In this document: piece after piece, positions 19,892 to 31,380 of the stretch | How the letters are laid out: each line of letters opens with the position of its first letter | How positions within the stretch are numbered: the stretch's first letter is position 1 | IMG/VR virus record: IMGVR_UViG_3300036770_002692 | Coordinates: 1-37,951 of that record | Strand: one strand, 5' to 3' | From: a virus | Length of the DNA: 37,951 nucleotides | Position numbers and translations under genes: made by a program | The notes under the pieces: generated by a model | The model's database searches: none | What the model was told of the DNA's origin: nothing | What the model saw: only the letters and a program-made list of their open reading frames with translations

Positions 19892-19926
19892 ACAAAAACA
19901 AAAAAGCCGGACAAATTGCCCGGCTT
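19892..19926 (-). terminator. Intrinsic terminator upstream of the portal gene
   Basis: On the minus strand AAGCCGG (19926-19920) and CCGGCTT (19910-19904) pair around a 9-base loop, followed by a T-rich run down to about 19892. It lies inside the late gene order, between a small gene and the portal gene. Confidence 0.75.
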
Positions 19927-19957
19927 CCCAATCCAATAAACCTTAAACTATTAGAAC

Positions 19958-20197
19958 CTAATTACCGTCGTTCTTTTCCCCCCGCGACGCGCACCTGGCA
20001 GCCCTGAAGGATTCGTAGCTGGTGTATCTTTCAGGAATGCCGTAAAACGCCCGCTCTGTCTCAATAGTCTCCCACGCTTGGCGGTGATTCATCGCGGAGG
20101 CTTGGACAAGTTGCCAAAAGCGCTCTTCGTACCCTTCCGGGTTAAGAGTGTTAATAACATCAATAGGTACAGTTATTGCAGTCGGCATCATAGGCAC
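19958..20197 (-). CDS. Small protein between large terminase and portal, unknown
   Basis: A 79-residue protein with a helix (NPEGYEERFWQLVQASAM) and the motif MNHRQAWETIETERAFYGIP, then RYTSYESFRAAR. Small proteins with this RxAWExxE...YGxPxRYxSYxSF pattern occur near terminase and portal in Bacteroidota phages. No enzymatic residues seen. A terminator follows its stop codon, so expression can be separated from that of the portal gene. Confidence 0.7.
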   Translation of the reverse strand: MPMMPTAITVPIDVINTLNPEGYEERFWQLVQASAMNHRQAWETIETERAFYGIPERYTSYESFRAARCASRGEKNDGN

Positions 20198-20212
20198 AAA
20201 AATAGGCTAATT

Positions 20213-23757: not shown

Positions 23758-24425
23758 TTCTCAATGATAATTAAGCCGTGCTTCATAATATTTTCAATAT
23801 CTAATGTGTCGCTGTTGTTATCACCAATTATGCGTACAGATTTTATATCGAATGTATCTAATTTTTTGAGTTCGGCAAAAGGCGTATTGAAAACATGTGT
23901 ACGCTTATTAATGCTGATTAAGTAATCGCGGAAGGTAACAAGTGTATTTGCAATGTCATTCATAACTGCTTGCCCAAATAATTCAGAGCCTTTTGGATAA
24001 TTGCAGGTATGCACGTCTTCAATCACATAATAACCGCCAGGCTTGACCTTATGCCAAAGCGCTGCAAGGGTAATTGCGTGGTGGTTCATGCAATGACCAC
24101 CATCATCAATAATAATATCCATCAGCGGCAGAGATTGCCATTGATCGGTAAAAAAGCTATCAATATCGTTTTGATCGCATTTAAGTTGCAAAATGCGTAA
24201 GTGATCTATGTCAATAGGCTTTCGATCAGCCCCGTAAATCATGGCATCAGGAAAATATTCAGCCCAGGCATTGTGGCTATTGCCGTTTTCAATACCTATC
24301 TCCAGCAGGTTTTCTACCTTAATGTCTTCGAAAATCTGCTCGTATATCGGTGCATAATTGTGCGCTGCATTGTGTTTGTTGCCCTTATCGGTGCCCCATT
24401 TGTTGAATACGTTATTTAGGGTCAT
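23745..24425 (-). CDS. Class I SAM-dependent methyltransferase, sugar-type
   Basis: A 226-residue protein. Residues 39-52 (NLLEIGIENGNSHN) form the SAM-binding motif I, Asp67 in IYGADRKP the second ribose-binding strand, and IIIDDGGHCMNHH at about 104-116 a metal/acceptor-binding motif, followed by VKPGGYYVIEDVH. This combination matches the TylF / macrocin and sugar O-methyltransferase type rather than DNA methyltransferases. Neighbours are glycosyltransferases and an acyltransferase, so methyl capping of a surface sugar is likely. Noticeably more AT-rich than its neighbours. Confidence 0.7.
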   Translation of the reverse strand: MTLNNVFNKWGTDKGNKHNAAHNYAPIYEQIFEDIKVENLLEIGIENGNSHNAWAEYFPDAMIYGADRKPIDIDHLRILQLKCDQNDIDSFFTDQWQSLPLMDIIIDDGGHCMNHHAITLAALWHKVKPGGYYVIEDVHTCNYPKGSELFGQAVMNDIANTLVTFRDYLISINKRTHVFNTPFAELKKLDTFDIKSVRIIGDNNSDTLDIENIMKHGLIIIEKCRV

Positions 24426-24987
24426 AGCTTAAAAATTTTAAGGTTAAATCGTGAAGATCTTTTTCACTCAATCCCGACCGCTCAAGGCCTACCTTGTTGA
24501 TGCCGATCTGCTTTGCCGGCACGCCTGCCCACATGGTGCCCGGAAGTACTTGCGCGTGTTTGGTAATCACCGCGCCCATGCCCAGCATGGAATAAGCTCC
24601 TATGCGTTGATATTGATGCACGGAGCAATTCAGGGAAAGGTTAGCGCCCTGACCTATGTGGCAGTAGCCGGAAAGCGCCGCGCCGACGCTAAGCACAACG
24701 CAGGGCTCCAGGATGCAATCATGGCCGACATGAGCATTGGCCATTAGCATACACCCGGAGCCTATTACCGTGGTGCGCTTTTCGCCAGCATCTACCGTAA
24801 CAAGTTTTTCGAGGCGTGCGCCGATACCGATAGTAACGCCTGCATTTTTACCCAGAAAGCCGTTAATTTGCGGCGGGGCGCCGATGACGCAAAGCGGGCC
24901 GATATAAGCCATTTGCATCACCGTAACGCCTGGGTAAATAATAGCGCTTGGGTGAACGTATGCGGTATGGTGTATCGGGTTATCCAT
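24412..24987 (-). CDS. LpxA-like left-handed beta-helix acyltransferase
   Basis: A 191-residue protein made of hexapeptide repeats ([LIV]-G-x4): AYVHPSAIIYPGVTV, AYIGPLCVIG, a central NAHVGHDCILEPCVVLSVGA, and GAVITKHAQVLPGTMWAGVPAK. The order of motifs and the post-helix segment KQIGINKVGLERSGLSEKDL resemble LpxA (UDP-N-acetylglucosamine O-acyltransferase) and related sugar acyltransferases. NAHVGHDC contains the catalytic-type His. LpxA proper has about 260 residues, so this is a short version lacking much of the C-terminal helical domain. It probably acylates a nucleotide sugar or lipopolysaccharide precursor. Confidence 0.75.
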   Translation of the reverse strand: MDNPIHHTAYVHPSAIIYPGVTVMQMAYIGPLCVIGAPPQINGFLGKNAGVTIGIGARLEKLVTVDAGEKRTTVIGSGCMLMANAHVGHDCILEPCVVLSVGAALSGYCHIGQGANLSLNCSVHQYQRIGAYSMLGMGAVITKHAQVLPGTMWAGVPAKQIGINKVGLERSGLSEKDLHDLTLKFLSYDPK

Positions 24988-25666: not shown

Positions 25667-25779
25667 TTATATCCTTTTTTCTTTTCCCGGCGCACCTCGC
25701 GCCAGGCAATGACGTAGGCGAAGACCACGATGCAAGCCGCCGCGCAAACAAATCCACTAACCCATGTCAGAGGGTGCAT
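25663..25779 (-). CDS. Small single-span membrane protein
   Basis: A 38-residue open frame from ATG at 25777-25779: MHPLTWVSG, then a hydrophobic stretch (FVCAAACIVVFAYVIAW), ending in a basic tail (REVRREKKKGYK). The TGA overlaps the next ATG as ATGA. One transmembrane helix with the positive tail probably inside. It could anchor or assist the glycan enzymes; the function is unknown. Confidence 0.6.
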   Translation of the reverse strand: MHPLTWVSGFVCAAACIVVFAYVIAWREVRREKKKGYK

Positions 25780-26023
25780 ACTTTTGGTTTTTGATTATTT
25801 CATTTAGTTCCGTCATCCGCTCCGGGCTCCATGCCCGCTCCATGTGGTAGCGCGCGCACGCCGCGATCAGGGCAACAGCGTCGCGCTTGTCTGATACTTC
25901 GCGCATCGGCTTCGGGTTCAGGATGACCGCCAGGCGCGTGGGTTCCATCGTGAAATACCGGAATACGCCGGGGCGCGTCTCTTCACCGTAAAAGTTGATC
26001 ATCGCGCGGTCGCTGTTACGCAT
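25757..26023 (-). CDS. Unknown protein, 88 residues
   Basis: An acidic/basic mixed protein with no transmembrane segment. Visible features: NFYGEETRPGVFRYFTMEPT, a short beta region with LAVILNPKP, and C-terminal helices (AVALIAACARYHME, then RMTELNEIIKNQ). I recognise no family. It overlaps small genes at both ends, so it is probably co-translated with them. It lies directly upstream of the glycan cluster. Confidence 0.6.
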   Translation of the reverse strand: MRNSDRAMINFYGEETRPGVFRYFTMEPTRLAVILNPKPMREVSDKRDAVALIAACARYHMERAWSPERMTELNEIIKNQKYAPSDMG

Positions 26024-26163
26024 ACTTTTGCGGTTTTGCTTGGTGATGGGATCGGGCTTGTGCCCCGGATGACAATGACCGCAATGGGCGGCACGGGCTT
26101 GGGCTTGGGCTGCGCTGCCGGGGCTTGTGCCAGAACGGCGGCGAGGAAAATTTCTAATAGCAT
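25999..26163 (-). CDS. Short exported or membrane peptide
   Basis: A 54-residue product from the ATG at 26161-26163, opening with a hydrophobic segment MLLEIFLAAVLAQ that resembles a signal peptide, then a Pro/Lys-rich stretch (QPKPKPVPP) and a hydrophobic strand. The open frame upstream lies in the terminator region and is not credible. It overlaps the next gene by 25 bases. Weak case, supported by the signal-like start and by lying directly after a terminator. Confidence 0.42.
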   Translation of the reverse strand: MLLEIFLAAVLAQAPAAQPKPKPVPPIAVIVIRGTSPIPSPSKTAKVCVTATAR

Positions 26164-26187
26164 AGTTCCAAAATTTAAGGGTGTGGT

Positions 26188-26221
26188 AAAAAACCGGGCG
26201 GCCTTGTCCCGCGCCGCCCGG
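26188..26221 (-). terminator. Strong intrinsic terminator
   Basis: On the minus strand CCGGGCGGC (26221-26213) pairs with GCCGCCCGG (26202-26194), nine perfect GC-rich base pairs around a 10-base loop, followed by six T (26193-26188). It ends transcription arriving from the tRNA and VRR-NUC side. Confidence 0.88.
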
Positions 26222-26259
26222 CGTATGATCATCTCAAAAACTAAATGCCGAAAAAGTAA

Positions 26260-26284
26260 GCGGGGCACCGCCTGGGCGCCCCGC
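26260..26284 (-). terminator. GC-rich hairpin with T-rich tail, possible terminator
   Basis: GCGGGGC (26284-26278) pairs with GCCCCGC (26266-26260) around an 11-base loop; downstream on the minus strand is TTACTTTTT. It stands about 40 bases before the stronger terminator at 26188-26221. Confidence 0.55.
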
Positions 26285-26337
26285 CCCACGCACAAAAAAC
26301 ATTCATTATGAAGACAAAAACTCGGAACTTTTAAATT

Positions 26338-26363
26338 GCCCCGGCGCTCTTTTGCACCGGGGC
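26338..26363 (-). other. GC-rich hairpin in the non-coding RNA region
   Basis: GCCCCGG and CCGGGGC (26363-26357 and 26344-26338) form seven perfect pairs around a 12-base loop. No T-run follows on either strand, so it is more likely part of an RNA structure than a terminator. Confidence 0.5.
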
Positions 26364-26385
26364 TGTTACCCACTAAAACTCCGTA

Positions 26386-26476
26386 TTTCTTCGCCGCATC
26401 CGCTGACGCATCTCCCGAGAGTTAAACCTGCCTTTCAGAGCGTACAGGAAGACCCGCGGTCTGCACGGCGAAGAAA
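26386..26476 (-). ncRNA. Candidate structured non-coding RNA, multibranched
   Basis: A perfect 11-bp helix closes 91 bases: TTTCTTCGCCG (26476-26466) with CGGCGAAGAAA (26396-26386). Inside are a hairpin AGACC/GGTCT with a 3-base loop (26462-26450), a possible CCTG/CAGG arm, a very short CTC/GAG arm, and GCGTC/GATGC around AGCG (26409-26396). The last pairs only in minus orientation, because it uses a G-U pair. No credible open frame covers it. It lies directly after the initiator-type tRNA and upstream of a terminator on the same strand. I do not recognise a known RNA family. Confidence 0.5.
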
Positions 26477-26503
26477 CCTGGGTTGCCTACTTAGGGCATT
26501 TCG

Positions 26504-26576
26504 TGGCGGAGGCTGGATTCGAACCAGCGACCTCCGGGTTATGAGCCCGGCGGGATACCATCTTCCCCACTCCGCG
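26504..26576 (-). tRNA. tRNA-Met(CAU), initiator type
   Basis: 73 bases forming a complete cloverleaf: acceptor CGCGGAG with CTCCGCC, D stem GGGA/TCCC, anticodon loop CTCATAA (CAU), T arm GCTGG-TTCGAAT-CCAGC, discriminator A. Three initiator marks are present: the mismatched first pair (C1 opposite C72), three consecutive G-C pairs below the anticodon loop (GGG/CCC), and a purine 11-pyrimidine 24 pair in the D stem. CCA is not encoded. A promoter of Bacteroidota type lies directly upstream. Confidence 0.9.
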
Positions 26577-26585
26577 ATGTGCTAA

Positions 26586-26618
26586 CAAATATACAATATT
26601 TTTTCTAACTAATTCCAA
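26586..26618 (-). promoter_or_regulatory. Promoter for the tRNA/ncRNA unit
   Basis: On the minus strand TTG (26618-26616) is followed after 22 bases by TATATTTG (26593-26586), matching the Bacteroidota -7 element TAnnTTTG. The spacer is slightly longer than the usual 19-21. Transcription would start near 26579, three bases before the tRNA 5' end. Confidence 0.6.
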
Positions 26619-26986
26619 CCTTCGAATAAATATTCGCGCACTACCGCCTGAAATTCCTCCAGGCTCCGGCATACGGCGGTTTCGTAGCCCTGAATACTTA
26701 GCGCCTGCAGCCACTCCTTTTGCCCTGGTCGCACGCGTCCGGTCTCCGTTTTCATCTCAATAAATAGCCCGTGGCTGCTCCGGCGCGGGATAGGTAGAAA
26801 CAGATCGGGCACATTAGGTTTCGCCCCTTCCTTCTTTAGCCGCGCCCACTGCGCCGCGCGTTGCTTCGCCGTGCCGGCCAGGTGCGCGCCGTTGGGAATC
26901 GCAAAAAGAAGGTTTGCTTCCCTCGGGTATTGGTATTCCATCCACCGGACGCAGGCGGCTTGGATGTCGTGTTCGCGGTATGTCAT
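26609..26986 (-). CDS. VRR-NUC domain nuclease
   Basis: 125 residues from the ATG at 26984-26986 (MTYREHDIQAACVRWMEYQY). The whole protein is a VRR-NUC (PD-(D/E)XK) domain: PNGAHLAGTAKQRAAQWARL, GAKPNVPDLFLP with Asp61, FIEMKT with Glu77 and Lys79, and PGQKEWLQ with the conserved Gln. This is the typical phage length. Such nucleases act on branched or flap DNA in phage replication and recombination. The reading frame continues upstream into the tRNA-Leu-like gene and must not be extended. A promoter for the downstream tRNA overlaps its last codons. Confidence 0.85.
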   Translation of the reverse strand: MTYREHDIQAACVRWMEYQYPREANLLFAIPNGAHLAGTAKQRAAQWARLKKEGAKPNVPDLFLPIPRRSSHGLFIEMKTETGRVRPGQKEWLQALSIQGYETAVCRSLEEFQAVVREYLFEGWN

Positions 26987-26995
26987 ATTCTTGTT

Positions 26996-27103
26996 TGGTG
27001 CCCAGGACAGGATTCGAACCTGCACGCCGCATCTTAATTAACAGGCTCGTACTTCCCGATGCGACCAAGCCATGTGCGTGTCTACCAATTCCACCACCTG
27101 GGC
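26996..27103 (-). tRNA. tRNA-Leu-like gene with aberrant central domain
   Basis: Acceptor GCCCAGG/CCTGGGC is perfect, a leucine-type D arm (GTG/CAC around GAATTGGTAGA) and a T arm (GCAGG-TTCGAAT-CCTGT) are clear, and CCA is encoded. Total length is 108 bases against about 88 for normal tRNA-Leu. The 53 bases between D and T arms do not give a 5-bp/7-base anticodon arm. Instead two interleaved helices can form: GGCTTG (27071-27066) with CGAGCC (27049-27044), and TCGCATC (27064-27058) with GATGCGG (27033-27027), an H-type pseudoknot. The anticodon cannot be assigned. It may be degenerate or a specialised tRNA-like RNA. Confidence 0.6.
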
Positions 27104-29498: not shown

Positions 29499-29607
29499 GA
29501 CAAAAAAAATAAGGGGAGCAGGCCACGACGCACTACTCCCCATTGAGGTTTTAAACCATGCCCCCGCGCCCGGTCGTGGGCGTGCGCGAGGGCGTTGCTA
29601 AGATACG
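29499..29607 (-). promoter_or_regulatory. Structured leader 1 with possible attenuation
   Basis: It begins with the 16-base motif CGTATCTTAGCAACGC (29607-29592), which also starts leader 2; TATCTTAG fits a -7 element, although no good -33 element lies upstream here. A 7-bp helix CCACGAC (29579-29573) with GTCGTGG (29529-29523) interleaves with the terminator stem, so the two should exclude each other or form a pseudoknot. Inside is a small hairpin GGTT-TAA-AACC. Confidence 0.6.
29502..29541 (-). terminator. Terminator in leader 1 (attenuator candidate)
   Basis: GGGGAG (29541-29536) pairs with CTCCCC (29518-29513), followed by TTA and eight T (29509-29502), ending three bases before the ATG of the replication-initiator-like gene. 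Confidence 0.75.
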
Positions 29608-31268: not shown

Positions 31269-31380
31269 AACTATAAAAAAAAATAAGCCCCCAACGCGTC
31301 GGAGTGCATTGAGGGCAATGAGGTATTCCTACCCGCATTTCACTGGCTCCGACCCCGGTGAAACGCGTTGCTAAGATACG
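31269..31380 (-). promoter_or_regulatory. Structured leader 2 with alternative folds (attenuator/riboswitch candidate)
   Basis: From the expected start near 31364 to the ATG at 31268. Fold A: CAACGCG (31370-31364) with CGCGTTG (31298-31292) continuing into GTCGGAG (31353-31347) with CTCCGAC (31304-31298), then GGGGGC and a run of nine T (31283-31275), a terminator. Fold B: TTTCAC (31363-31358) with GTGAAA (31343-31338) locks the GTCGGAG strand in its loop and would prevent fold A. Two small hairpins, GGTA-GGAA-TACC (31333-31322) and CATTG-CCCT-CAATG (31320-31307), lie between. Confidence 0.65.

Follow-up and report, generated by a model that had tools for sequence, protein, structure and literature searches.

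The minus-strand stretch 26188-26618 of virus record IMGVR_UViG_3300036770_002692 (the window, which is the full record of 37,951 bases) is probably a short transcription unit of the σA type that would supply an initiator tRNA from the leader between early and late genes, its trailer being discarded; we put the probability of this reading at about 70%. The promoter match, the initiator features of the tRNA, the terminators, and the lack of a reading frame are seen in the sequence itself, whereas transcription, processing, and a role in tRNA dosage are inferred. An earlier note on this DNA had announced a new structured RNA, a claim that we correct to a phage gene for a single initiator tRNA, equipped with a promoter and terminators of its own, a kind of gene that is already known. 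The protein-free unit of promoter, tRNA, and terminators that the same note described is well supported by the sequence.

Features of the tRNA unit and of its flanks, in the order of transcription (positions in the window)
Feature	Position	Strand	Remarks
VRR-NUC nuclease gene	26609-27025	-	stop at 26609 within the promoter region; final gene of the replication/recombination module
Bacteroidota-type promoter P3, TTG-N22-TATATTTG	26586-26618	-	-7 box at 26593-26586
Initiator-type tRNA-Met(CAT)	26503-26576	-	64.3 bits to RF00005
91-nt stretch with a perfect 11-bp inverted repeat at its ends	26386-26476	-	arms 26386-26396/26466-26476; interior fold not significant
GC-rich hairpin 1	26338-26363	-	10 bp, loop of 6, without a U run
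GC-rich hairpin 2	26258-26286	-	terminator-like, with ACTTTTTC behind it; same sequence in L082
Intrinsic terminator T3	26188-26222	-	9-10 bp stem, T6 run
Small ORF directly past T3	26009-26163	-	candidate for the first gene in the operon downstream; read from sequence
88-aa gene	25757-26023	-	41% identity with its L082 counterpart

The consensus of Bacteroidota σA promoters consists of a TANNTTTG -7 box and a TTG around -33 (PMC7366714), and P3 contains both. There are four matches to the strict promoter pattern in the 37,951-base record (0.85 matches per strand are expected from shuffling), in all cases on the minus, coding strand and in intergenic DNA; the promoter that the earlier note had pointed at the tRNA is one of these four. 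The spacing in P3, 22, is longer than the 19-20 found at the other three sites. Because the -7 box of Flavobacterium is located at -12 to -5 (PMC9723704), the start of transcription is predicted near 26581, ~5 nt upstream of the tRNA. Promoter type is the basis on which the phage host can be tentatively placed in the Bacteroidota. At another site of the same type, P4 (20204), the -7 box is kept in relatives L081-L086, including L085 and L086, which are at ~71% identity. P4 opens a second block of promoter, short unit, and terminator (P4-T4, 19901-20204) ahead of the portal gene; a 79-aa ORF within this block (19958-20197) has diverged (77% nucleotide identity to L082), yet is kept in relatives. 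In the relatives L130 and L131, the first late gene has a promoter of this type immediately in front of it, and the short gap of these late leaders contains no tRNA and no hairpins.

The tRNA-Met(CAT) displays all sequence identity marks of an initiator: the 1:72 position is unpaired (a C1xC72 mismatch), the anticodon stem has three G:C pairs (G29-31:C39-41, CCGGG/CCCGG), and G11:C24 provides purine 11 and pyrimidine 24. Judged by these marks it can be assigned to the initiator type, as had been proposed from the sequence earlier. No CCA is encoded, and the anticodon loop, CUCAUAA, is unmutated. The model of permuted tmRNA (RF04321) gave 13.9 bits against a gathering score of 47, with the match spanning part of the tRNA. 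A search with a strict pattern revealed initiator-type tRNAs in 18 IMG/VR stretches, several of them as lone tRNAs, and 283 phage records matched the tRNA of the window. Unlike the window tRNA, few phage-encoded initiator tRNAs have their own Bacteroidota-type box; among the 18 IMG/VR stretches, TANNTTTG was present in the scanned upstream stretch of L142 only.

Additional RNAs related to tRNA were observed in other phages. The records of L130-L133 contain a tRNA-like RNA of 122-123 nt (L157:1501-1622 and L160:1501-1623; 37.8 bits to RF00005), which was missed by ARAGORN, has ~50 nt extra between the D and T arms, shows a compensatory change in the T stem (GTAGG/CCTAC vs GCAGG/CCTGC), and lies upstream of a gene that by eye resembles thyX. 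Two tRNA-like RNAs with large inserts (L181:1195-1315 and L181:1494-1620; 39.6 and 45.7 bits to RF00005) were found in human gut phage clone MT837596.1 shortly behind an initiator-type tRNA, and the first insert has CATGTTCGTG. In Stenotrophomonas phage vB_Sm_QDWS359, a permuted tmRNA (L177:2453-2747, 108.7 bits to RF04321) is located just behind tRNA-fMet and tRNA-Ile, antisense to an annotated hypothetical gene.

The two GC-rich hairpins and the 9-bp terminator that the earlier note had placed on the minus strand were all found there. T3 combines a GC-rich hairpin of 9 bp with a U6 run, i.e., the two elements of an intrinsic terminator, and hairpin 2 is terminator-like. Of the five hairpins that have nine or more GC pairs on the minus strand of the window, three are clustered downstream of the tRNA in a stretch of ~170 nt. 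Elsewhere in the window, strong terminators were seen at 31287-31316, directly before a methyltransferase gene, and at 29513-29541, within the start region listed for the replication-initiator gene. The latter position suggests that the true start of this gene is further downstream than listed.

The sole relative of the region is L082 (IMGVR_UViG_3300036770_004719), which begins at 26339 and so holds only hairpin 2 and T3. In L082, T3 has G-U in place of a G-C pair and so keeps its pairing. A minus-strand ORF, 25999-26373, is broken there by a 2-nt indel. Over 127 nt of the shared leader part L082 and the window are identical. This identity was dropped as a sign of selection and is explained by recent exchange, since the two are also identical over a tract of 1314 nt within coding DNA. 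Relatives spanning the promoter, the tRNA, or the 91-nt stretch were not found. Searches with the terminase, the VRR-NUC nuclease, the replication initiator, the glycosyltransferase, and the first late gene yielded no additional record reaching the element; a terminase search in genome contigs gave a distant Oscillospiraceae match only. A pattern derived from the 3' part common with L082 recovered L082 as a true relative, and the three other matches were due to chance.

The gene order of the record runs from early to late: a NinB-like gene, the replication initiator, and VRR-NUC are followed by the tRNA unit, past which there are glycosyltransferases, an acyltransferase-like protein, HNH, TerL, portal, protease, and capsid genes. 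The tRNA unit is best read as part of a leader that separates the replication/recombination module from the late (sugar-modification, terminase, and head) genes, and its tandem terminators lie ~25 nt ahead of the downstream operon. In L131 and L163, distant relatives that have replication and terminase genes in common with the window, the two modules are oriented divergently. The acyltransferase-like protein (24412-24987), encoded beside the glycosyltransferases in this phage module, is LpxA/NeuD-like and possibly takes part in surface-sugar modification.

In the reading that we favor, transcription would begin at the predicted start just upstream of the initiator tRNA and would mostly stop at the tandem GC-rich terminators, the last of them at 26188. 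Host enzymes would then trim the tRNA precursor, add CCA, charge the tRNA, and formylate it, and extra initiator tRNA would be available at the peak of late translation. The remaining ~315 nt, to which the 91-nt inverted-repeat stretch belongs, would be a trailer to be removed or degraded. Partial read-through of the terminators might feed the late genes; this is a natural question, since no Bacteroidota-type TANNTTTG box was found from T3 up to the first late genes.

Read-through is central to a rather unlikely alternative, namely that the leader is an antitermination switch like lambda pR'-tR', with its protein Q, or like the put RNA of HK022. Polymerase starting at P3 would normally stop at the tandem terminators; once modified, perhaps by the RNA closed by the 11-bp stem, it would continue into the late genes. 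The location of the tandem terminators right before the downstream operon and the lack of a promoter box behind T3 agree with such a switch, as do the P4-T4 block, which repeats the layout of promoter, short unit, and terminator ahead of the portal gene, and the D3-like phages, in which a tRNA is likewise found where early genes give way to late ones. Precedent is provided by lambdoid phages, in which Q makes polymerase read through the terminator cassette behind pR' (PMC6266700). However, no antiterminator protein was recognized (none of the scanned proteins is Q-like, several neighbors being without a family), the fold of the 91-nt stretch is not significant, and a late promoter of an unrecognized type may lie inside 26213-26339.

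It is unlikely that the tRNA instead serves survival of host tRNA-cleaving defenses, such as a VapC-type attack on initiator tRNA. Phage tRNAs have been proposed as a counter to anticodon nucleases in a study that also cites initiator-tRNA-cleaving VapC enzymes (PMC10264068). The window tRNA, however, has a standard anticodon loop, and phages are reported to generally avoid tRNA-fMet where the anticodon itself is cleaved (PMC10264068), which together make escape from an anticodon nuclease less likely. Because the loop is unmutated, a dosage role fits better.

The earlier note took the 91-nt element for a real, new structured RNA that the phage transcribes along with the tRNA, a view that appears quite doubtful. 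The perfect 11-bp inverted repeat closing the 91 bases was confirmed. Such a repeat was reached in 0.5% of shuffles of the intergenic region (shuffling of the whole window leads one to expect ~1 such repeat), and the pair probabilities of the closing stem are near 1. It also holds that the stretch lacks a credible reading frame, as no minus-strand open frame of at least 20 codons covers 26386-26476. The proposed multibranched RNA, on the other hand, found no support in folding. The inner 69 nt are less stable than most of their shuffles (z = +0.9; 248 of 300 shuffles were equally or more stable), and the z of the entire 91-mer, -1.6 to -1.9, is reached by ~9% of 91-nt segments across the record. 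With z = -2.9, the plus-sense strand folds at least as convincingly, so the G-U pair that exists in minus sense only, which had been offered as an argument for orientation, does not discriminate between the strands. At the gathering score, no Rfam family matched the 91-nt stretch. Only its closing 11-bp stem is non-random, and neither a specific multibranched fold nor the idea that a structured RNA is the main cargo besides the tRNA is supported, the 11-bp stem being the only unusual part and the opposite strand folding at least as well.

Searches for homologues of the element did not return any. A pattern of the 11-bp stem had nine matches in IMG/VR, all unrelated; in BLAST searches of phages and plasmids, the RNA part had short chance matches only; and a single-sequence covariance model run over ~1.4 Mb of loci produced only weak matches, with E above 0.2. 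Local alignment of the window with DNA downstream of phage tRNA-Met genes revealed nothing beyond shuffles, and a look-alike to D3-phage RNA that had been noticed by eye failed the alignment test. An antitermination switch based on RNA, in which the 11-bp-closed element of the nascent transcript would allow polymerase past the tandem terminators to the late genes and the tRNA would be excised from the same leader, is a very unlikely reading. Finally, it is most improbable that the intergenic palindromes work at the level of DNA instead of RNA, as a packaging site, replication origin, or attachment site: GC-rich palindromes are indeed present in a long gene-free stretch near replication genes, but there is no skew change at the tRNA unit and no integrase among the proteins scanned, terL is >4 kb away, and T3 carries a canonical U run.

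As a leader that would deliver an initiator tRNA ahead of the late genes, the unit can be compared with known systems. The late leader of lambda, pR'-tR', is likewise made of a promoter, a short untranslated leader, and terminators directly before the late genes. It differs in that the window leader holds a tRNA, that no Q or qut was identified in the window, and that read-through is here only hypothetical. How late transcription gets past terminators in a Bacteroidota phage is a question that the placement raises.

For tRNA placement, we compared a hand-picked sample of phages, which is not a census. The best phage tRNA matches include those of Pseudomonas phages phPA-G, D3, and Haboob (82-88% identity over 66-82 nt). 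In PaMx74, Elanor, QDWS359, and R6L, a tRNA matching that of the window directly follows the terminase gene. The D3-like phages differ from the window in detail: they have three additional tRNAs where the window has a single one, they encode CCA, their terminator-like hairpin (read from sequence) is located before rather than after the tRNA, the anticodon-arm sequence is GGGCCCATAACCC instead of GGGCTCATAACCC, and the DNA downstream of the tRNA is unrelated. What they have in common with the window is gene position. In D3, phPA-G, and Haboob, tRNA-Met is separated by one or two small genes from NinG, at the end of the early genes, and lies ahead of the late genes; the ~300-500 nt behind it are gene-free or have short hypothetical ORFs only, and further tRNAs and late genes come next, with holins in D3 and phPA-G. 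The parallel is thus one of position, not of detail, and is partial, and it makes one ask why unrelated phages put an initiator tRNA at the boundary between early and late genes.
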